A stretch of DNA of 64,000 nt. Source: Ensifer sesbaniae (lineage in GTDB: Bacteria > Pseudomonadota > Alphaproteobacteria > Rhizobiales > Rhizobiaceae). Made by a program: the position numbers and the translations under genes. The stretch covers positions 1,674,001 through 1,738,000 of the forward strand of contig NZ_JABEKU010000001.1 in assembly GCF_013283665.1 (NCBI RefSeq), in the 5' to 3' direction. This document shows, piece by piece, positions 42,516 through 55,578 of this stretch; position 1 is the first letter of the stretch, and each line of letters starts with the position of its first letter. The notes under the pieces were generated by a model. The model made no database searches and had not been told where the DNA came from. It saw nothing but the letters and a program-made list of their open reading frames with translations.

Positions 42516-44576
42516 TCAGATGTCCAGGTTCTCGGCGAACACGGCGCGCTCCTGGATGAAGCGGAAGCGGGCGTCGGCCTTCGTGCCCATGAGATTGTCC
42601 ACCGCCTCGCGCGTGCCCTCGAAGTCGATCTCGTCGATCTCGACCTTCAGCAGCGTGCGATGGGCCGGGTCCATCGTCGTTTCCTTGAGCTGCGCGGGCA
42701 GCATTTCGCCAAGACCCTTGAAGCGACCGATCTCGACCTTGCCGCGGCCGGCAAATTCGGTGCGCATCAGCTCTTCGCGATGCGCGTCGTCGCGGGCATA
42801 GAGCGTCTTCGAGCCCTGGCTGATGCGGTAGAGCGGCGGTACGGCGAGATAGAGGTGGCCGCCGCGGATCAGCTCCGGCATCTCCTGGTAGAAGAAGGTG
42901 ATCAGCAGCGAGGCGATATGCGCGCCGTCGACGTCGGCGTCGGTCATGATGATGACGCGCTCGTAGCGGAGATCCTCGCCGCGATACTTGGTTCTCGTGC
43001 CGCAGCCGAGGGCCTGGACGAGATCGGCGATCTGCTGGTTGGCGCTGAGCTTTTCGCGGCCCGCACTCGCGACGTTGAGGATCTTGCCGCGCAGCGGCAG
43101 GATCGCCTGGTTGGAGCGGTTGCGCGCCTGCTTTGCCGATCCGCCTGCCGAATCCCCTTCGACGATGAAGAGTTCGGCGCCTTCTGCGGTGTTCTGCGAG
43201 CAGTCCGCCAGCTTGCCGGGTAGGCGGAGCTTACGCACCGCCGTCTTGCGGTTGACTTCCTTCTCCTTGCGCCGGCGCACGCGCTCTTCGGCGCGCTCGA
43301 TCACCCAGTCGAGCAGCTTGGCGGCTTCTCCCGGATTGTCGGCCAGATAGTGATCGAAGGGGTCACGAAGCGCGTTTTCGACGATGCGCTGCGCCTCGAC
43401 CGTCGCAAGCTTGTCCTTCGTCTGGCCGACGAACTCCGGTTCGCGGATGAAGACCGACAGCATGCCAGCCGCCGAGATCATCACGTCGTCGGTGGTGATG
43501 ATCGCCGCCCGCTTGTTCTGCGTCAGTTCGGCATAGCTCTTCAGGCCCTTGGTCAGCGCGATGCGGAAACCCGCCTCATGCGTGCCGCCCTCGGGCGTCG
43601 GGATGGTGTTGCAGTAGGAATGCACCTGCTGGTCGCCGCCGTACCAGGTGACGGCCCATTCGAGCGAGCCGTGCCCGTTCGCTTTCTCCGACTTGCCGGC
43701 GAAGATCTCGCGGGTGACGGTGAACTCCTTGCCGAGCGTCGCGGCGAGGTAGTCCTTCAGGCCGCCCGGGAAGTGGAAGACGGCCTTGTCCGGGATTTCG
43801 GAGCCTTCTTGCAGGAGCGACGGATCGCAGGACCAGCGGATCTCGACGCCGCCGAAGAGATAGGCCTTCGAGCGCGCCATGCGGAACAGCCGCCCGGGCT
43901 CGAAATGTGCGTGCGGCCCGAAGATATCCGGGTCCGGATGGAAGCGAACGCGGGTGCCGCGGCGGTTGTGCACGTCGCCGAGTTCTTCGAGCCCGCCCTG
44001 CGGAATGCCGCGGGAGAAGCGCTGGCGATAGAGCTTGCGGTTGCGGGCGACCTCGACTTCGAGCGCATCGGACAGCGCGTTGACGACGGAAACGCCCACG
44101 CCGTGAAGACCGCCCGAGGTTTCGTAGGCCTTGCCATCGAACTTGCCGCCGGCATGCAGCACCGTCATGACGACTTCGAGCGTCGACTTGCCCGGGAATT
44201 TCGGATGGTTCTCGACCGGGATACCGCGGCCGTTATCGGTCACGGTCAGGAAGCCGTCGGCATCGAGGTTGACTTCGATGAAGTTCGCGTGGCCGGCGAC
44301 CGCTTCGTCCATCGAGTTGTCGATGACTTCGGCGAAGAGGTGGTGCAGCGCCTTCTCGTCGGTGCCGCCGATATACATGCCCGGACGACGACGAACCGGC
44401 TCCAGACCCTCGAGCACCTCGATCGCCGAAGCGTCATAGTCGCTGCCATCACTGCCTTTCGGCGCAGGGCGCGGCTCTTCGCGCGCGACTGGTGCCGCTG
44501 GCACCGCCGGCTTGGCGCTCGGCTGTGCAGGCTTCGGTTGCTCGGGCATTGAAAAGAGGTCGCTGTTGTCGTCCAT
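42516..44576 (-). CDS. parE: DNA topoisomerase IV subunit B
   Basis: This 686-residue type IIA topoisomerase B subunit supplies the ATPase and TOPRIM domains for chromosome decatenation. The GHKL ATPase region shows EVIDNSMDEAVAGHA, VTDNGRGIPVENHPK and GGLHGVGVSVVNALS. The transducer follows, then TOPRIM (ELFIVEGDSAGGSAKQARNR and IIMTDADVDGAHIASLL) and the C-terminal GRFKGLGEMLPAQLKETTMDP. ParE rather than GyrB is inferred from length and the absence of a TOPRIM insert. An N-terminal Pro/Ala-rich tail of about 45 residues precedes the ATPase. ATG is at 44574-44576. Confidence 0.93.
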   Translation of the reverse strand: MDDNSDLFSMPEQPKPAQPSAKPAVPAAPVAREEPRPAPKGSDGSDYDASAIEVLEGLEPVRRRPGMYIGGTDEKALHHLFAEVIDNSMDEAVAGHANFIEVNLDADGFLTVTDNGRGIPVENHPKFPGKSTLEVVMTVLHAGGKFDGKAYETSGGLHGVGVSVVNALSDALEVEVARNRKLYRQRFSRGIPQGGLEELGDVHNRRGTRVRFHPDPDIFGPHAHFEPGRLFRMARSKAYLFGGVEIRWSCDPSLLQEGSEIPDKAVFHFPGGLKDYLAATLGKEFTVTREIFAGKSEKANGHGSLEWAVTWYGGDQQVHSYCNTIPTPEGGTHEAGFRIALTKGLKSYAELTQNKRAAIITTDDVMISAAGMLSVFIREPEFVGQTKDKLATVEAQRIVENALRDPFDHYLADNPGEAAKLLDWVIERAEERVRRRKEKEVNRKTAVRKLRLPGKLADCSQNTAEGAELFIVEGDSAGGSAKQARNRSNQAILPLRGKILNVASAGREKLSANQQIADLVQALGCGTRTKYRGEDLRYERVIIMTDADVDGAHIASLLITFFYQEMPELIRGGHLYLAVPPLYRISQGSKTLYARDDAHREELMRTEFAGRGKVEIGRFKGLGEMLPAQLKETTMDPAHRTLLKVEIDEIDFEGTREAVDNLMGTKADARFRFIQERAVFAENLDI

Positions 44577-44827
44577 GGGGCCGTTCGGGTCGTTCCTGTC
44601 GTCTGGGGATGCCGGAGGCCATAGCAAGACCTCGGCTTTGCCGCCATCCCCCGGCGGTCGAATCACCTGAATTCTGCCAGACTCTCACGGGATACGCGAA
44701 CAAAAGGAGAATTCAGGCGTCGGCCGGGGCGAAATCCCGCCTTCATGGCCATGTCACGGAGCAAGTGTTGCTTTGGCGTCCGGGCGATGGCAAGTCTTTC
44801 GGCGAACGAGGGAGCCCGTCATTGGCC

Positions 44828-45706
44828 GTGTCCACAATTGTTTTTCCGTTTCGTCGGCTTTTGCTGGCCGTTGCCTTGTTTTCCGCGGCTTCCGTCGCCC
44901 AGGCGCAGGCTGTGAAGCCCTTCAAGGACGAACTCTTCTCCTATGGCAAGGTGCTGCAGCAGAATGATGACGGCGACGACCTGACCGTCGATTACCAGGA
45001 ACTGCGCGACATCAACGAACGGGACGAGATCCCGGAGCGCCGGGTGAAACGTGCCTATGTTTCGCTTGGCGTGAAGAGCGAGCAGGTCAACGAGACGCTG
45101 GACATTGGCGGCCATTCGCTCGATGTGACCCGCGTCGGTCCCGACCGTGGCGCTGCCTTCACGGTGATCTTCGTCCACGGCCGCGGCGGCGATCGCCGGC
45201 TCGGCACCAACGATTTTTCCTTCGGCGGCAACTTCAACCGGCTGAAGAACCTCGCTGTCGCCAATGGCGGCACCTACTACGCGCCAAGCGTCCGTTCCTT
45301 CGACACATCAGGCGCTGCAGATATTGCCGGCCTGGTGAAGCAGGCTTCCGAGCGGTCCGGCGGTCGCCCCGTGGTGCTCGCCTGCGCCTCGATGGGAAGC
45401 TTCATCTGCTGGGGCGTTTCGCGCGATGCCTCTGCCGTGGCGGCTCTCGGCGGCATGATGGTGATGGGGGGCGTGAGCGACCCCGATTTCACCAAGAGCG
45501 CTGCCTACAAGGCGAAGCTGCCGATGTTCTTCAGCCACGGCAGCCGCGACAGCGTCTATCCGGCCGAAAGCCAGAGGGCGCTCTACCGTGCGCTCAAGTC
45601 CAAGGGCTACCCGACACGCTTCGTTCTCTTCGAAACCGGCTCGCACGGCACCCCGCTGCGCATGACCGATTGGCGCGATGCGTTGAACTGGATCGGTCGC
45701 CACTGA
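44828..45706 (+). CDS. Exported alpha/beta-hydrolase
   Basis: This 292-residue protein begins with a signal peptide (FRRLLLAVALFSAASVAQAQA) and has an alpha/beta-hydrolase core. Visible elements are VIFVHGRGGDRRLGTND after the oxyanion strand, a nucleophile-elbow-like ACASMGSF in which the usual first glycine is replaced, SHGSRDSVYP carrying the acidic residue, and TGSHGTPLR with the catalytic His. It starts with GTG at 44828; TTG at 44822 is an alternative. It diverges from parE across a 251-bp gap. Substrate is unknown. Confidence 0.75.
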   Translation: MSTIVFPFRRLLLAVALFSAASVAQAQAVKPFKDELFSYGKVLQQNDDGDDLTVDYQELRDINERDEIPERRVKRAYVSLGVKSEQVNETLDIGGHSLDVTRVGPDRGAAFTVIFVHGRGGDRRLGTNDFSFGGNFNRLKNLAVANGGTYYAPSVRSFDTSGAADIAGLVKQASERSGGRPVVLACASMGSFICWGVSRDASAVAALGGMMVMGGVSDPDFTKSAAYKAKLPMFFSHGSRDSVYPAESQRALYRALKSKGYPTRFVLFETGSHGTPLRMTDWRDALNWIGRH

Positions 45707-45833
45707 CCTTTGTCGGCGCCGCTGACATTTGTTAACCAGCCCGACAGTTTCCGGGCGAGATTGTGGGCCGTGTTTCCACTCTGGAAAGTTGAAGACGTCA
45801 TCATGCCCGGCAATTATGGCTGGGGTGGAAATC

Positions 45834-47276
45834 ATGGACGCGCGCACCGAAACACGGCACGTTCCCCTGTGTGTGGATCTCGACGGTACTTTGTTGGCCG
45901 CCGATACGCTGTGGGAAGGTGCGGCGATCATCCTCTTGCGCAATCCCCTGATGCTCATTCCCATGCTGTTCTGGCTGGCGAAGGGCAAGGCGCGGCTGAA
46001 GCATGAGGTGGCCTTGCGTTCCGGCCGCCAGGCTCAGGACTGGCCTTACCGCCAGGCCGTCATCGATCGGCTGGCGGAGGAGAGAAAATCCGGGCGCGAA
46101 CTGGTGCTCGTCACCGGAGCGGCGCCATCCGTCGCCAGAGACGTTGCCGATCATGTCGGGCTCTTCTCCTCGGTCATGCATTCGACCGACGCGCTCAATC
46201 TGACGAGCAGCCGCAAGCGCCAGGCTTTGGTCGACCGCTACGGCGACGGTGCCTTCGACTATATGGGCAACAGCCGAGACGACATCGCCGTCTTCGAGGC
46301 GGCGCGGTGCGCGATCGTGGTTGCTCCGGACGCGGCCGCCGAAAAGTGGCGCCGCAATCATGATGCCGAGCGCCTGGATACCGGCCAGGTGAGCATGCTC
46401 GCGCCGCTGAAATCCATTCGGGTGCATCAATGGGCGAAAAACGTGCTCATCGTTGTGCCTATGATCCTCAATCACGAGGTCCTGCATCTCGACGCGATCG
46501 CCAGCGTCATCATTGCCTTCTTCGCGTTCAGTTTCCTCGCCTCGGCGGTCTACGTCATCAACGACCTTTCGGACCTTTCGAATGACCGTCGCCACGCGAA
46601 GAAGCGTCATCGGCCGCTCGCAAGCGGCCAGATGTCGGTGCCGACGGCGCTCATTCTTGCCGCCTGCCTCGTCCTGGCGTCGCTGTCGCTGACGCTTCTG
46701 CTGCCGTGGAAATTCGCCGGTGTGCTGGCGTTCTATGCCTGCGCGACGACGGCCTATACCTTCGTGCTGAAGCGCAAGCTGCTGGTCGACGTCTTCACGC
46801 TTGCCGGCCTCTACACCACGCGCATTGTTGCCGGTGCTGCGGCCACGGGCACGGAACTCTCCTTCTGGCTGGTTTCCTTCGCGATCTTCTTCTTTCTCAG
46901 CCTGGCGCTGGTGAAGCGCTACGTCGAGTTGCACGAGTTTGACGACAAGGACGGCGGCAACGTTCCGGGCCGCGGCTATCTTGCTGTCGATTTCGAGATG
47001 GTGGGGCAGGCCGGCGTCGCTTCCGCCTTCACCTCGGCCCTGGTCCTTGCGCTCTACGTGCACAGCAAGGAACTCCAGGAAATGTACACCACGCCCTGGG
47101 CGCTGTGGCCGCTTTGCCCGCTGGTGCTCTATATGTTGTTGCGCATCTGGATGCTTGCGCGTCGCGGCATGCTGCATGAAGACCCCGTTGTCTTCATCAT
47201 GCGTGACTGGCGCAGCCAATTGACCATGCTGGTCGGCGCGCTGTTGATCCTGTTTGGAGCCATCGGGCCGCAATGA
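45834..47276 (+). CDS. HAD phosphatase - UbiA prenyltransferase fusion (DPPR synthase-like)
   Basis: This 480-residue protein joins two enzymes. Residues 1 to about 200 are a HAD phosphatase: motif I DLDGTLL (Asp15, Asp17), VLVTGAAPS, and GNSRDDIAVF. The rest is a UbiA-type transmembrane prenyltransferase. Its first Asp motif is NDLSDLSNDRRHAKKRHRPL (Asn243-Asp251) and its second spans LKRKLLVDVFTLAGLYTTRI (Asp319). Both match 5-phosphoribosyl-polyprenyl-phosphate synthases such as mycobacterial Rv3806c. I infer transfer of phosphoribosyl to polyprenyl phosphate and 5'-dephosphorylation by one chain. ATG at 45834 is used; ATG at 45816 is possible. Its stop overlaps the next start. Confidence 0.9.
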   Translation: MDARTETRHVPLCVDLDGTLLAADTLWEGAAIILLRNPLMLIPMLFWLAKGKARLKHEVALRSGRQAQDWPYRQAVIDRLAEERKSGRELVLVTGAAPSVARDVADHVGLFSSVMHSTDALNLTSSRKRQALVDRYGDGAFDYMGNSRDDIAVFEAARCAIVVAPDAAAEKWRRNHDAERLDTGQVSMLAPLKSIRVHQWAKNVLIVVPMILNHEVLHLDAIASVIIAFFAFSFLASAVYVINDLSDLSNDRRHAKKRHRPLASGQMSVPTALILAACLVLASLSLTLLLPWKFAGVLAFYACATTAYTFVLKRKLLVDVFTLAGLYTTRIVAGAAATGTELSFWLVSFAIFFFLSLALVKRYVELHEFDDKDGGNVPGRGYLAVDFEMVGQAGVASAFTSALVLALYVHSKELQEMYTTPWALWPLCPLVLYMLLRIWMLARRGMLHEDPVVFIMRDWRSQLTMLVGALLILFGAIGPQ

Positions 47277-48595
47277 GTTTGCTGGATCATGAAAGCTGGG
47301 GTCGGCTCGACAATCGCGCGCGGCCGGCCATCTCGCCCGACGACTATGAGGACCGTCTCGGCAGCCTGGAGGCCGGTGGCTACTTGCCCTTCGGCAACGG
47401 CCGCAGCTATGGCGACAGTTGCCACAATGACCGGGGCACGCTGATCGAAAGCCGCCGACATGGCCGGATCATCGCCTTCGATCCCGGCACCGGGAAGATG
47501 ACCTGCGAGGCCGGCGTGACCTTGCGTCAGGTGCTCGAACGCGCGATCGAACATCGCTTCTTCCTGCCGGTCACCCCTGGTACGGCTTTCGTCACCGTCG
47601 GCGGCGCCCTTGCCAACGACGTCCACGGCAAGAACCACCATGCGCGCGGCACCTTCGGCAATCACGTGACGGGTTTCACGCTCCTGCGTTCGAACGGGGA
47701 TCGGCTGACCTGTTCGCCGGAAGAGAACTCTGAACTCTACGCCGCGACCATCGGCGGCATGGGCCTGACGGGCTTGATCCTGACCGTGGATCTGCGGCTG
47801 ATGAAGGTGCCGTCGCCGCATGTCCAGCAACATGCGATCCGCTTCGACAACCTCGACCAATACTTCGCCCTCGTCGATCGCGTCGACCAGGAGCACGAAT
47901 ACTCCGTTGCCTGGATCGATCAGCTCGCAACCGGTTCCCGCGCGGGCAGGGGTGTATTGCTGGCCGGCGACCACGCCGATGGCTCCTGCGAGTTGCCCGA
48001 CATCCCAAAGGGACTGAAGCTGTCGGTGCCCTTCGCGCCGCCTTTCAACCTTCTGAACCGGGCAACGCTCAAGGCTTTCAACGAATATTACTTCCGCAAG
48101 GAAAAGCCGGGTGAAACCGTGACGACGGTTCCCTGGACATCCTATTTCTATCCGCTGGATGCGATCGGTGCCTGGAACAGGCTTTACGGTCCGCGCGGTC
48201 TCTACCAGCACCAGAGCGTCTATCCGACGGACCGTGCACCGGAGATCACGGCGAAGCTGATGGAGACCGCTCGGCTTGCCGGCCACGCGTCGTTCCTCAC
48301 GGTTCTGAAGCGTTTCGGCGACATCGGCTCGCGCGGTCTTCTTTCCTTCCCGCGACCCGGTTTTACTTTGACATTGGACTTCGCCAATCAAGGTGAACGG
48401 ACAGTAAAGCTCCTGGATGCGCTCGATCGCATCGTGATCGAGGCCGGCGGTGCGATCAATCCGTACAAGGATGCCCGCATGAGCCCGCAAGTCTTTGAAA
48501 AATCGTTCCCTTCCTGGAAAAAGCTCGAGGCGCTGCGCGATCCTGCGCTCGTTTCCAACTTCTGGAAGCGCACGGCTCTGGCTTTGCCAGAATGA
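47273..48595 (+). CDS. DprE1-like FAD-dependent polyprenyl-phosphoribose 2-oxidase
   Basis: This 440-residue protein is a VAO-type FAD oxidoreductase. PLPFGNGRSYGDSCHND-like sequence and PGTAFVTVGGALANDVHGKN followed by HHARGTFGNHV closely match DprE1, which oxidises decaprenyl-phosphoribose to the 2-keto intermediate of the arabinose route. The catalytic lysine is kept (Lys399 in PYKDARM). The position of mycobacterial Cys387, target of benzothiazinones, is Thr367 in FTLTLDF. The start overlaps the stop of the HAD-UbiA gene by four bases. No separate DprE2-type short SDR is adjacent. Confidence 0.9.
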   Translation: MSLLDHESWGRLDNRARPAISPDDYEDRLGSLEAGGYLPFGNGRSYGDSCHNDRGTLIESRRHGRIIAFDPGTGKMTCEAGVTLRQVLERAIEHRFFLPVTPGTAFVTVGGALANDVHGKNHHARGTFGNHVTGFTLLRSNGDRLTCSPEENSELYAATIGGMGLTGLILTVDLRLMKVPSPHVQQHAIRFDNLDQYFALVDRVDQEHEYSVAWIDQLATGSRAGRGVLLAGDHADGSCELPDIPKGLKLSVPFAPPFNLLNRATLKAFNEYYFRKEKPGETVTTVPWTSYFYPLDAIGAWNRLYGPRGLYQHQSVYPTDRAPEITAKLMETARLAGHASFLTVLKRFGDIGSRGLLSFPRPGFTLTLDFANQGERTVKLLDALDRIVIEAGGAINPYKDARMSPQVFEKSFPSWKKLEALRDPALVSNFWKRTALALPE

Positions 48596-48688
48596 GAATG
48601 CAGACAATTTTATTCAATTAAACTTTCAAACTTCACGGAAAATCCGCCTCTTGCCCGTAAGTACATTTGCGGGACTGGGAGTAAAACA

Positions 48689-49129
48689 ATGAAATATATT
48701 TCATTCATTCTCTTTACGGTGCTTACCAACGCTGCCGCTCAGCTCATGCTGAAGCAGGGAATGATGACGCTCGGACCGATATCGATGACCGCCGAAACGG
48801 CGATCGTCCGGCTGTTCCAGATCGTCTTCAACCCCTGGGTCTTTGCCGGCCTCGCGACCTTCGTCATTTCGATGGCGTCGCATCTCTATGTGCTGTCGAA
48901 GGTCGAGCTTTCCTTTGCCTATCCTTTCCTGAGCCTCGCTTACGTTGCCGTCGCGGTCTTCGCCTATTTCGTTTTCCGCGAGGACCTCAATGCCTGGCGC
49001 ATCGCCGGTATCGCGCTGATCTGTGCAGGAACCGTTCTCATCGCCCAGTCGGGCATCTCATCCCATGCCGATGACAAGTCGGCTGAAGCCGCCGGGGTGG
49101 GCACCGCAGAATTCGGGAGCAAGTCATGA
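48689..49129 (+). CDS. Small EamA/DMT-family transporter (four helices)
   Basis: This 146-residue protein has four transmembrane helices: an AAAQLMLKQGM start, a VFAGLATFVISMASHLYVLS helix, SFAYPFLSLAYVAVAVFAYF and a final GIALICAGTVLIAQSG. A hydrophilic tail of about 25 residues follows. It is a half-size member of the EamA superfamily, like the ArnE/ArnF pair that flips undecaprenyl-phosphate-aminoarabinose; such proteins act as dimers. It lies 93 bases after the DprE1-like gene and overlaps the next gene by four bases. I infer that it flips the lipid-linked sugar made by the cluster. Confidence 0.85.
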   Translation: MKYISFILFTVLTNAAAQLMLKQGMMTLGPISMTAETAIVRLFQIVFNPWVFAGLATFVISMASHLYVLSKVELSFAYPFLSLAYVAVAVFAYFVFREDLNAWRIAGIALICAGTVLIAQSGISSHADDKSAEAAGVGTAEFGSKS

Positions 49130-50136
49130 AACACATCATCTTTGGTGGCGACGGCTTCGTTGGCCGTCACCTGGCGGAGCGCCTAGTCAAGGACGGCGAG
49201 GAAGTCGTGATCGCCGATATCGTCAAGTCCGACCTGCCGCATTACGGCCGCGCCCGCTTCGTCCATTGCGACGTCACCGATCTGGAATCTGTTCAAAAGG
49301 TCGGGATCGGCGCGGACGATATGGTCTACAACATGGCGGCGAAGATGCTGTCGCCGCTGCAGATCCGCTCGAAACGATGGGAATTCTTCTGGCCCGTCAA
49401 CTATTACGGCGCCGAAAACATCATGAAGGCCATGGATGCCGCCGGCGCGTCGCGTCTGGTGCAGTTCACCACCGACATGATCTACGGCCATACGGTCCAG
49501 TCGCCGCAGACGGAGGATCACCCGGCAAAGCCGCTCGGTGAGTACGGTAAGTCGAAGTGGGCGACGGAACAGCTCGCGGTGCAATGGCGCAAGCAGGGCA
49601 TGAACATTGCGATCTTCCGCCCGCGCCTCATCATTGGCCCCGGCCGTCTCGGCATTCTCGAGAAATTGTTCAAGCTGATCGACCTGAACCTGCCGGTGCC
49701 GATGATCGGCTCGGGCAAGGTGCCCTACCAGTTCATTTCGGTCTTCGATTGCGCCGAAGCCGCGCGCCTTGCCTGGAAGGGCGGCGTGCCGAACGAAGCC
49801 TATAATCTCGGCTCCGACAATCCGCCTTCCGTGCGCGACCTGCTCGGCAATCTGATCAGGCACGCGGGTTCCAAGTCCTTCCTGCTGCCGACGCCCGCCT
49901 TCGCGGTCAAGCAGACACTGGCCTTCTTCGACCTGATCAACAGGCCGATCATGGATCCGGAGCAGTATCTGATCGCCGACGAGATGTGCGTGCGCGAAAC
50001 CGGCAAGCTGAAGCGTGAGCTCGGCTGGCGTGCCGAATACAATGACGGCGACATGCTAATCGCCGCCTACGACGAATATCGGGCGAAGAAGACGGGCGCC
50101 GTTTCCACCGCTGCCGTCGCCGTGCCGGCCGAATGA
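49126..50136 (+). CDS. Extended SDR, NAD-dependent epimerase/dehydratase
   Basis: This 336-residue extended short-chain dehydrogenase starts with the dinucleotide-binding motif HIIFGGDGFVGRHLAERL and has the active site Thr/Tyr/Lys in FTTDMIYGH and GEYGKSKWATE (YxxxK). The IFRPRLIIGPGRLG and VFDCAEAARLAWKGG segments are typical of nucleotide-sugar epimerases and reductases. The product is not predictable. In context it might reduce or epimerise the keto-sugar intermediate. Start and stop both overlap neighbouring genes by four bases, so it is firmly part of the cluster. Confidence 0.88.
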   Translation: MKHIIFGGDGFVGRHLAERLVKDGEEVVIADIVKSDLPHYGRARFVHCDVTDLESVQKVGIGADDMVYNMAAKMLSPLQIRSKRWEFFWPVNYYGAENIMKAMDAAGASRLVQFTTDMIYGHTVQSPQTEDHPAKPLGEYGKSKWATEQLAVQWRKQGMNIAIFRPRLIIGPGRLGILEKLFKLIDLNLPVPMIGSGKVPYQFISVFDCAEAARLAWKGGVPNEAYNLGSDNPPSVRDLLGNLIRHAGSKSFLLPTPAFAVKQTLAFFDLINRPIMDPEQYLIADEMCVRETGKLKRELGWRAEYNDGDMLIAAYDEYRAKKTGAVSTAAVAVPAE

Positions 50137-51599
50137 GGGGAGACACCATGCTGGACATACCGAACCGTATCGCCGTTGCCGCCCCCTCGCTTGACGGTGG
50201 CGTGACCAAGCCCGACCTCATCACCGTCGAACAGGCGAAAGCCATGTCGATCGGCGACATCACCACGGCTTTCAAGGAGCACCTGAACCCAGGACAGCTC
50301 CACTTCATGAAGCTTCTCGGCTTCCACAAGGTGAAGATCGAGAGCGCCGAGGGCATGTTCTACACCGACCAGAACGGCCGAAAGATCCTCGATTTCTTCG
50401 GCGGCTTCGGCTCGCTCGCCTTCGGCCACAATCATCCGCGCATCCTCGATGCGCGCCAGAAGTTCCAGGACGAAAAGCGCCACGAGATCGCGATCGCCTT
50501 CATGTCGCAATATGCGGCGGCTCTGGCGAAGAACATCGCTGCCTGCTCGCCCGGCGATCTCAACATGGTCTTTCTCGGATCGTCCGGTTCGGAAGCGATG
50601 GAGGCGGCGGTCAAGCTCGCCGAGCGCGCCGCCGGTCCGAAGCGGCCGAAGGTCGTCCATGCCGAGAATTCCTTCCACGGCAAGACCAAAGGCGTGCTCG
50701 CCATCACCGATGGCCAGCTTTACCGCGCCGACTTCAAGGTCACCGACAATACGGTCCGCGTGCCCTTTGCCGATATCGACGCCGTGGAGAACGCCTTCAA
50801 GTCCGATCCGGAAATCGGCGTCATCGTGCTCGAAACCATCCAGGGCGGCGGCGGCATCATCCAGGCGCCGGCCGAATACTGGCAGAAGCTGCGCGCGCTC
50901 TGCGACAAATACGGCGTGCTCTGGGTCGCCGACGAGGTGCAGTGCGGCTATGGCCGCTCCGGTCGCTTCTATGCCTTTGAGCATTATGGCGTCGTGCCCG
51001 ATGTGACCGCGCTTGCCAAGTCGCTCGGCGCCGGCAAGGCTGCCGTTGGTGCGATGATCGCGCGCCGTGAAGTCTACATGAAGGCCTATGGCACGCCGAA
51101 GACCGCGATGATCCACGCCATGGCAACCTTCGGCGGCATGGGCGAGGCCTGTGTGACGGCGATCGAGGGCATCAACGTGCTCTACGACGAACACCTGATC
51201 GATCGCGCCGCCGACAGCGGCGAATATCTGCTCGAGCGCCTGCAGGCGCTGAAGGGGAAGTATCCGAAGATCATCAAGGACGTGCGCGGCAAGGGGCTGA
51301 TGGTCGGCCTCGAGTTCCAGGACTTCAGCCAGACGCTGCCGATGGTTCTGCGCCCTGTCGTCTCGATGCTCGACGACAAGCTCAAGGGCTCGCTCTCGGG
51401 CTTCATTGGCGCGCTGCTGCTGCGCGACTACGACGTGCTCGTCGCCTTCACTGAATACAATCGCAATGTCATCCGGCTCGAGCCGCCGCTGATTTGCGAG
51501 CGCGCCCACGTCGACCAGTTCATCGCTGCGTTGGACGACCTGCTCGGCCGCGGCATCGTACGCATCGTCAAGGATTTCGTCGGCAGCCAGATCGGCTGA
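50133..51599 (+). CDS. Class III PLP-dependent aminotransferase
   Basis: This 488-residue protein matches class III aminotransferases. DFFGGFGSLAFGHNHPRI is near the start, and FLGSSGSEAMEAAVKLAERA binds the cofactor phosphate. LWVADEVQCGYGRSGRFYAFEH holds the Asp that contacts the pyridine nitrogen. TALAKSLGAGKAAVGAM holds the Schiff-base lysine. The acceptor cannot be read from sequence. Its start overlaps the SDR gene by four bases and it ends the cluster at a bidirectional hairpin. I infer a ketosugar as a possible substrate because the cluster makes one. Confidence 0.9.
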   Translation: MRGDTMLDIPNRIAVAAPSLDGGVTKPDLITVEQAKAMSIGDITTAFKEHLNPGQLHFMKLLGFHKVKIESAEGMFYTDQNGRKILDFFGGFGSLAFGHNHPRILDARQKFQDEKRHEIAIAFMSQYAAALAKNIAACSPGDLNMVFLGSSGSEAMEAAVKLAERAAGPKRPKVVHAENSFHGKTKGVLAITDGQLYRADFKVTDNTVRVPFADIDAVENAFKSDPEIGVIVLETIQGGGGIIQAPAEYWQKLRALCDKYGVLWVADEVQCGYGRSGRFYAFEHYGVVPDVTALAKSLGAGKAAVGAMIARREVYMKAYGTPKTAMIHAMATFGGMGEACVTAIEGINVLYDEHLIDRAADSGEYLLERLQALKGKYPKIIKDVRGKGLMVGLEFQDFSQTLPMVLRPVVSMLDDKLKGSLSGFIGALLLRDYDVLVAFTEYNRNVIRLEPPLICERAHVDQFIAALDDLLGRGIVRIVKDFVGSQIG

Positions 51600-54249: not shown

Positions 54250-55578
54250 ATGAATAGGACTATGGGTAACGATCTTCACGAGGCCAATCGCCTCTCCTGG
54301 AACGCGGCGACGGTCGCGCATAACAGCCACAAGGGCGATCAGGCAGCGTTTTTTCGCGCGGGCGGTTCCACGCTCTATCCTGAAGAAATCGGCTTGCTCG
54401 GCGACGTCGCCGGGCTGGAGCTTCTCCATCTCCAATGCAACTCCGGTCAGGATAGCCTGAGTCTCGCCCGCCTCGGCGCCCGGGTCACTGGTGTCGATAT
54501 CTCGGACGAGGCGATCGCCTTTGCGACGCGGCTTTCCGAAGAAAGCGGGATTGCGGCCAGCTTCGAACGGTCCGACCTGTTCGAATGGTTCGAGCGTGCG
54601 GTGGCGGACGGACGGCGGTTCGATCGCGTCTTCGCGTCCTACGGCACCATCTGCTGGCTGTCGGATCTCGGCGTTTGGGCGCGCGGCATAGCCGACGTGC
54701 TGAGGCCGGGCGGGCGCTTCGCCTTCATCGAGTTCCATCCCTTCGCCATGGTCTTCGACCCGGGCTGGAAGCCACACTACGACTATGCTCCCAAGAAACC
54801 GGTCGCAGAAGCGGGCGTCGGCGACTATGTCGCCGATTCCGGCACAGGCCTTGCAATCGGCGGCTACCAAGAGGGTGTCGTGGGCTTTACCAATCCCCAC
54901 CCATCCTTCGAGTTCAACTGGGGTATCGCTGACGTGATCCAGGCGCTCATCGATTCCGGACTCCGGATCGAGCGTCTGACGGAATATCCCTACGCCAACG
55001 GCTGGGTCGGCTTCGAAGGCATGCGAGATCTCGGTGACCGGCGCATGGCGCCGCCTGCAACCATGCCAAGCCTGCCTTTGATGTACTCGATTGCGGCCGC
55101 AAAGCCGGAAGGCAAGCAGGGAGCCCGTGACGGTGCCGCGCCCATCGCCATTCGCCCCTGGCGTCCGGAGGAAGGCGAACGGTTGCTTGCAATCTGGCTC
55201 GCGGCGTCGCGTGTCGGCCATCCGTTTCTCGGTGAGGCGCGCCTTCTCGAACAGCAGCAGCTGGTGCGGGACACTTACCTGCCGATGGCAGACAATTGGG
55301 TCGCCGCGATCGACGGGCAGGTCGTGGGCTTCATCGGGCTGATCGAGAACTTCATTGGCGGTCTGTTCGTCGATCCGGATATCCACGGCGCCGGCATCGG
55401 TCGCGCCCTTGTCGAGGATGCTGCCGCGCGCCTCGGGCCGCTCGAAGTCAGTGTCTATGCGGACAATCAAGCCGCCGTCGACTTCTATCGTCGCCGCGGT
55501 TTCGTCGAAACCGCACGCAAGGAGACCGACGACGAAGGGCTGCCCTTCGCGGTAATCGAGATGACACGCAGCGCCTGA
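54250..55578 (+). CDS. Fused SAM-dependent methyltransferase - GNAT acetyltransferase
   Basis: The 442-residue protein has two catalytic domains. Residues 1 to about 280 are a class I SAM methyltransferase: [32 protein letters not shown] forms motif I and post-I, and [16 protein letters not shown] and [15 protein letters not shown] follow. Residues from about 295 to 442 are a GNAT domain ([62 protein letters not shown]). The joint is an Ala/Gly-rich linker near 280-292. Neither substrate is known. ATG at 54250 or 54262 may be the start. Confidence 0.9.

Follow-up and report, generated by a model that had tools for sequence, protein, structure and literature searches.

In the pentofuranose systems described in PMC11127046, a fusion of a HAD phosphatase with a UbiA-type transferase makes polyprenyl-phosphate ribose. 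Whether the side chains contain ribose or xylose depends on a single short-chain dehydrogenase/reductase (SDR) gene, whose action the authors assign to the lipid-linked sugar, and arabinofuranose systems are tied to DprE1/DprE2. The three-component system of Citrobacter youngae O1/O2 comprises ORF15 (PPPRS), ORF13 (epimerase), ORF14 (MATE flippase), and ORF12 (GT136), and related pentofuranose systems use other flippase types; the word "aminotransferase" does not occur in the main text of that paper (PMC11127046). Here, a 64,000-nucleotide stretch of the Ensifer sesbaniae genome (contig NZ_JABEKU010000001.1, positions 1,674,001 to 1,738,000; hereafter the window) was analyzed, in which five consecutive genes at 45834-51599 encode a HAD-UbiA fusion, a DprE1-like oxidase, a small EamA-type membrane protein, an extended SDR, and a class III aminotransferase. 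We lean, with modest confidence, toward assigning this cluster to a previously undescribed branch of polyprenyl-phosphopentofuranose synthesis, one whose aminotransferase would aminate the 2-keto intermediate, in contrast to the reductive step of the known arabinose pathway. Conserved among root-nodule bacteria and related organisms, the cluster probably assembles a lipid-linked amino sugar that is exported to decorate the cell surface. Among the open-licence papers listed in literature searches, judged by the openings of their abstracts, there was no description of the cluster or of a lipid-linked aminopentofuranose.

The original prediction had placed the five genes on one strand with four-base overlaps at three of the four junctions. 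The list of open reading frames (ORFs), together with Pfam and NCBIfam, bears out the five genes, all on the plus strand, and the ORF coordinates give the overlaps at UbiA/DprE1, EamA/SDR, and SDR/aminotransferase, with a 93-base gap separating DprE1 from EamA. The start codon is ATG and the stop codon TGA in 5/5 genes; the ATG of the UbiA fusion at 45834 is in frame with the TTG at 45729 that opens its longest ORF. The fusion matched Pfam UbiA with 94.1 bits (cut-off 34.2) and NCBIfam NF006088 with 579 bits (cut-off 351), its Pfam HAD match was weak (25.8 bits, just below the cut-off of 27), and its UbiA part resembled a decaprenyl-phosphate phosphoribosyltransferase of solved structure (8j8j, E 8.6e-26). 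The DprE1-like protein, 94% identical to its counterpart in Ensifer sp. Root278, matched Pfam FAD_binding_4 (67.3 bits) and the solved DprE1 4aut (E 3.6e-67). The EamA protein reached 31.5 bits in Pfam (cut-off 28.2); its best NCBIfam match was ArnF, at 54.9 bits against a cut-off of 99, and ArnE scored 35.8 bits against 92, neither cut-off being reached. The SDR is of the extended type, close to GalE-type enzymes (Pfam Epimerase, 118.8 bits), and the aminotransferase matched Pfam Aminotran_3 (285.8 bits), with 4ppm (labelled "Aminotransferase" and presumably PigE) and the putrescine aminotransferase 4uox as the nearest solved structures.

Catalytic residues were counted in the window and in those of 85 aminotransferase loci that passed the coverage limit (at least 80% cover for UbiA rows). 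The 85 loci leave out L117 and L128, whose oxidases are identical to those of L038 and L073; rows with an internal stop in the matched stretch were dropped (SDR of L070 and L081, aminotransferase of L053, EamA of L089 and L094), and frame breaks were kept as found (e.g. L016 and L053). In the UbiA fusion, the HAD Asp15 and the NDxxDxxxD motif (N243, D244, D247, D251) were intact in 76/76 rows. The DprE1-like protein contains the flavin adenine dinucleotide domain, HGKNHH, and the lysine that is catalytic in DprE1; H118, K120, H122, and K399 were found in 84/84 rows and H123 in 81/84. The GGxGxxG (G7, G8, G10, G13) and YxxxK (Y140, K144) motifs of the SDR were complete in 82/82 rows, as were Lys296, the pyridoxal phosphate (PLP) lysine, and Arg448 of the aminotransferase in 85/85. 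Positions conserved in at least 97% of rows numbered 191/488 in the aminotransferase, 135/336 in the SDR, 99/480 in UbiA, and 96/440 in DprE1, the first two being the most constrained proteins of the cluster. The UbiA/HAD/DprE1 entry route proposed in the original prediction is supported by the homology to 8j8j and 4aut and by the intact catalytic residues. Residues ~397-445 of the aminotransferase form a strongly conserved stretch (LDxKLKGSLxGF...AFTEYNRN), which aligns poorly with the putrescine aminotransferase and at which the insert of 4ppm is longer still; it is possibly a lipid-substrate feature.

A first sample of loci comprised the best 80 of 569 relatives of the DprE1-like protein. 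Because this sample was picked by likeness to DprE1, whose presence is built in, linkage was also tested starting from the aminotransferase, in unbiased searches of 199 genomes of the order and 398 of the phylum; in these, as in the searches for DprE2 and the order-level search for the membrane protein A2 (see below), part of each genome's first-look candidates was scored. All five genes were present in 72/80 of the DprE1-nearest loci. Among the other eight, four contained DprE2 and no aminotransferase (L078, L079, L082, L084), two from Ensifer/Sinorhizobium the oxidase alone (L014, L021), and one from Hoeflea only UbiA and DprE1 at that place (L022), and in one the contig end falls inside the aminotransferase gene (L027). 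The aminotransferase was found in 10/199 order genomes and 7/398 phylum genomes, making 15 different genomes, all of the window's order. UbiA and DprE1 share its locus in 15/15, with gaps to the aminotransferase of 81-3250 bases in the 14 besides the window. The linkage beyond this genome on which the original prediction had staked itself in advance is thus conserved.

The commonest gene order was UbiA-DprE1-EamA-SDR-aminotransferase, EamA being present in 84/85 and the SDR in 83/85 aminotransferase loci. Shorter forms were UbiA-DprE1-aminotransferase (L086) and UbiA-DprE1-EamA-aminotransferase (L087); in L094 and L121 a gene for a glycosyltransferase of the C fold (GT-C) is inserted and DprE1 relocated, with an internal stop in the DprE1 of L121. 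The two halves of the cluster are convergent in Bosea and L124 and divergent in L089, and in Hoeflea they are split (L122 and L123), a different contig carrying the aminotransferase along with the SDR and EamA. The Hoeflea and Bosea arrangements would suit two unrelated operons adjacent by descent, UbiA-DprE1 serving a pentose and EamA-SDR-aminotransferase something else. This is very improbable, since the halves lie close together in 15/15 genomes despite several rearrangements, Hoeflea retains both, none of the 15 carries aminotransferase, SDR, and EamA without a DprE1-like gene, and among the 30 genomes with DprE1 DprE2 is lacking altogether only where the aminotransferase is present. In L086 (9192-13133), two LPG_synthase_TM proteins and a second PMT_2 protein lie on the flanks of the cluster, which has no SDR or EamA; they may substitute for the flippase and provide an additional transferase.

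Within the order sample, a DprE1-like gene was detected in 30/199 genomes (E<=1e-40). Of the 20 that have no aminotransferase, 19 carry DprE2 within 200 bp of DprE1, and in the twentieth (G043) a DprE2-like gene is on another contig. No DprE2 (E<=1e-25) was found in 9/10 aminotransferase genomes; the tenth is that of the window, in which DprE2 occurs only beside a second, nod-linked DprE1-like gene on another contig. The exclusion gave a Fisher p of 3.7e-7, relatedness ignored. The two genes occurred together in none of the annotated loci (the 80 DprE1-nearest and further loci) and are mutually exclusive at loci. The lack of an adjacent DprE2, noticed in the original prediction, proved correct, the only DprE2 of the genome at E<=1e-25 belonging to the nod-linked operon. 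The lone DprE2-like gene of G043 (L129, 5477-6229) is 63% identical to that of the nod operon, and G043 is the sole genome of the order sample with the close oxidase type and no aminotransferase.

Amination at C2 would account most simply for the linkage and for the exclusion of DprE2. A less probable alternative, though one to be taken seriously, is that the SDR does the work of DprE2, or epimerizes C3 like Citrobacter ORF13, giving a neutral pentose such as arabinose or xylose, and that the product of the aminotransferase is a different amino compound, such as one that substitutes the same glycan. ORF13, described as a GalE-aligned SDR with TGxxGxxG and YxxxK, alone turns ribofuranose into xylofuranose side chains (PMC11127046). 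The SDR of the cluster, also near the GalE type, is likened to it by description only, and G043 has an SDR and no aminotransferase. The aminotransferase is nevertheless the constant partner: G161 and G183 keep it with no SDR match (E<=1e-15) and no DprE2 (E<=1e-25), so that it is the only cluster enzyme left there for the oxidase product. A C3 epimerase alone would, moreover, need no DprE1, yet DprE1 accompanies the aminotransferase in 15/15 of the genomes found through the latter. The same two genomes bear on a further, rather unlikely alternative, in which the SDR first moves or creates a carbonyl, for instance at C3, where the aminotransferase would set the amine of a 3-amino pentose. The SDR and aminotransferase are neighbors wherever a locus holds both, and remain together even when split from UbiA-DprE1 (L122), as such a joint action would have it; however, G161 and G183 do without the SDR, and the 2-keto group formed by DprE1 would be left unexplained.

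The history of the oxidase bears on how often aminotransferase and DprE2 were exchanged. Aminotransferase-type oxidases, L086 apart, were separated from all others by a single branch in a first tree (SH-aLRT 98), from which L121 was left out owing to its internal stop, and likewise in a second tree (100/97) of 51 of the 115 rows and the window. Under midpoint rooting, used as a drawing aid only, the aminotransferase type is nested within the DprE2 type, and DprE2 is also the companion of the oxidases from Chloroflexota and gammaproteobacteria (L082, L084); DprE2 was, therefore, probably the older partner. The trees suggest one or two switches only. The oxidase of L086 groups with DprE2-type oxidases; a single aminotransferase clade was not rejected (p 0.188), and a second, independent replacement of DprE2 is accordingly not claimed.

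Under the C2-amination reading, the UbiA part would transfer phosphoribose from phosphoribosyl pyrophosphate onto polyprenyl phosphate and the HAD part would strip the 5-phosphate, after which the DprE1-like enzyme would oxidize C2 to give the 2-keto lipid; these steps follow from the enzymes of PMC11127046 and of mycobacteria. In place of a reduction to arabinose by DprE2, the 2-keto group would be converted into an amine by the aminotransferase, and the SDR, where present, may reset a further stereocenter or redox state. The role of the SDR is the least certain, because it is missing in two aminotransferase genomes and present without the aminotransferase in one. EamA would then flip the lipid-linked aminopentose, and a GT-C enzyme would move it to an envelope acceptor. 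The product, chemistry, and acceptor of this pathway are inferred, the phosphoribose steps from tested homologues and the amination from the linkage and exclusion data.

Two families of membrane proteins recur beside the aminotransferase, A1 (26 rows) and A2 (24 rows); of the one member of each that was scanned, neither L068 (A1) nor L085 (A2) matched any Pfam family at E<=0.01. Their predicted structures had a predicted local distance difference test score of 90.2 (A1) and 87.7 (A2). For A1, the best 44 structural rows (VIA) were GT-C proteins or complexes holding one, with Z of 16.8-11.0 and the next at 8.1, the identities of some chains being presumed; Foldseek returned nothing for A1 at E<=0.001 (best E 7.9e-3). 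A2 was nearest to ArnT (Foldseek E 2.0e-5, Z 12.7), and, although Z under ~13 may be chance for helical bundles, its 43 rows at Z>=5 were again proteins or complexes of this kind. By these models, both families have the GT-C fold. A GT-C-like gene was present in the kept stretch of 60/85 aminotransferase loci (26 A1, 25 A2, 4 both, and 5 of other types, which were found with query proteins from four of those five), and not in the kept stretch of the other 25.

The GT-C gene, adjoining the cluster in many genomes, is unlinked in that of the window. The co-occurring GT-C for which the original prediction proposed a search has a candidate in A2, and the window genome contains all three parts of a three-component pentofuranose system, a PPPRS-like fusion and EamA within the cluster and A2 elsewhere, the latter two being the putative flippase and transferase. 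Unlinked A2 was found in 10/10 genomes searched, namely nine of those 25 and the window's own. Adding L017 and G043, in which A2 was known beforehand to lie beside the cluster, it was present in 12/14; among these 14 it was missing only from L014 and L021, which have no UbiA (E<=1e-15) and no cluster-strength aminotransferase or SDR genome-wide, EamA not having been searched genome-wide. Across the order sample, 3/199 genomes carry A2 (G000, the window genome; G043; G119), and each of the three belongs to the 11 that have a close oxidase (>430 bits, the next being 381; G161, apart in the tree, is included; Fisher p 1.3e-4). Of those without A2, G105, G064, and G095 have A1, and G038, G158, G161, and G182 have proteins with PMT_2 matches of 18.8-29.4 bits (cut-off 26.1) or a 60% relative of such a protein. 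A1 was also tried as the GT-C of the window genome and was found in 0/14 genomes, a weak null because this set held no known A1 carrier.

Several observations weigh against the proposed pathway. The oxidase scored 335 bits with the DprE1 equivalog NF053785, below its cut-off of 500, and since neither it nor the EamA protein attains an equivalog cut-off, "DprE1-like" and "ArnE/F-like" are the fitting words. The nearest solved aminotransferases are not known to act on sugars. The HAD-UbiA fusion is not universal, because five Bosea-type loci (L066, L070, L080, L081, L124) show no HAD match before UbiA. The place of the SDR could be filled in G161 by a nearby Gfo/Idh oxidoreductase, and the SDR may have a function independent of the aminotransferase, because G043 retains it without the latter. 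Two Ensifer genomes (L014, L021) keep the oxidase without UbiA, SDR, or aminotransferase. A2 is missing in 8/11 of the close-oxidase genomes of the order, in which there are other GT-C candidates, among them a 516-residue protein of G183 with no Pfam match and GT-C nature unconfirmed. Finally, as the aminotransferase type is nearly one group, its exclusion of DprE2 represents one or two evolutionary events, not 30.

The nod-linked locus of the window genome (L088) contains a second UbiA-DprE1 pair together with DprE2, GtrA, and a membrane protein, next to matches to NodA and NodS. It shares 90.6% identity with part of plasmid NC_022536.1 (BN877 locus tags) and presumably corresponds to the noeCNHOP operon for arabinosylation reported in strain IRBG74 (PMC5080398). 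The genome thus offers an internal control, since a DprE2-type pentose operon and an aminotransferase-type cluster coexist in the same cell. The gene between UbiA and DprE1 (L088, 10656-11120 on contig C4; L143, 4102-4524 on NC_022536.1) is of the GtrA family, on the basis of a Pfam GtrA match of 34.5 bits and the PLSDB record "GtrA family protein". By gene order it would be noeN, which is suggested in PMC5080398 to be possibly a phosphatase; a flippase role fits a GtrA-family protein better.

Table 1. Positions of the cluster genes and of related genes in the Ensifer sesbaniae genome (plain ranges are window positions).
Feature	Position	Strand	Remark
HAD phosphatase-UbiA fusion	45834-47276	+	Candidate polyprenyl-phosphate phosphoribosyltransferase and 5-phosphatase
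DprE1-like FAD oxidase	47273-48595	+	Candidate 2'-oxidase of polyprenyl-phosphate ribose
Small EamA/ArnF-like membrane protein	48689-49129	+	Candidate lipid-linked sugar flippase
Extended SDR, epimerase/dehydratase family	49126-50136	+	Candidate sugar epimerase or reductase
Class III PLP aminotransferase	50133-51599	+	Candidate for aminating the 2-keto lipid-linked pentose
DprE2 of the window genome	G000:C4:227453-228172		Beside the second DprE1-like gene
A2 GT-C of the window genome	G000:C1:1920831-1922543		Unlinked to the cluster

Neighboring genes were also considered. The upstream alpha/beta hydrolase (44492-45706) and the downstream YceI and cytochrome b genes were rejected as parts of the pathway, the hydrolase because it is confined to loci with a ParE flank (or L013, which runs off its contig), including L014 and L021, which lack the pathway. 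In these two (L014, 10001-11284; L021, 10001-11296), a 72% identical DprE1-like gene lies between the same hydrolase and YceI neighbors, and UbiA, EamA, SDR, and aminotransferase are absent at the oxidase locus. Amination of a hopanoid side chain, prompted by HpnA being the best NCBIfam match of the SDR, was dropped because this match reached only 66.4 of 367.65 bits and the aminotransferase travels with UbiA/DprE1, no comparison with HpnO itself having been made. Elsewhere in the window, a single 442-aa ORF (54250-55578) appears by eye to encode an S-adenosylmethionine methyltransferase followed by a GNAT acetyltransferase.

In full, the proposal would be that the aminotransferase replaced DprE2 on polyprenyl-phospho-2-ketoribose and yields the first lipid-linked amino-pentofuranose (2-amino-2-deoxy, possibly C3-epimerized), flipped by EamA and, in many families of Rhizobiales, transferred on the outer side of the membrane by GT-C families that are new, including an ArnT-like one; we consider the chances of this fuller version to be evenly balanced. 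If it is true, ribose, xylose, and arabinose are joined by an amino branch of pentofuranose donors, the envelopes of many rhizobia and related bacteria bear an unrecognized, probably positively charged pentose, and a further use emerges for a DprE1-type enzyme, a relative of a tuberculosis drug target. The analysis puts names to the genes of the set and to a GT-C candidate and yields an assay that turns on one mass unit; the published assay gives m/z 435 for farnesyl-phosphate ribofuranose (PMC11127046).

The cluster resembles in outline the Arn pathway for 4-amino-4-deoxy-L-arabinose, in which ArnE/F is the flippase and ArnT the transferase: a lipid-linked aminopentose, a small EamA-type flippase, and an ArnT-like GT-C (A2) would be common to both. 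The Arn amine, however, is set by another enzyme class (ArnB is DegT/DnrJ-type) on the nucleotide sugar before the lipid stage, and the EamA protein of the window misses both the ArnE and ArnF cut-offs. With the mycobacterial decaprenylphosphoryl-arabinose pathway (Rv3806c, DprE1, DprE2), the cluster shares homology in the UbiA phosphoribosyltransferase and DprE1, whereas that pathway has a separate, unrelated phosphatase, DprE2, and no aminotransferase (as outlined in PMC11127046). The noeCNHOP Nod factor arabinosylation operon (PMC5080398) likewise combines UbiA, a DprE1-like oxidase, a small flippase-type protein, and a membrane transferase, but it is nod-linked, has DprE2 and GtrA, and has no aminotransferase, EamA, or SDR of this type. 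Unlike the system of Citrobacter youngae O1/O2, the cluster has a DprE1-like oxidase, no DprE2, and a class III aminotransferase, with EamA in place of MATE and the GT-C gene unlinked in the window genome; as in that system (PMC11127046), a HAD(PRP)-UbiA entry fusion, an enzyme modifying the lipid-linked pentose, a flippase, and a GT-C would together make up the pathway.

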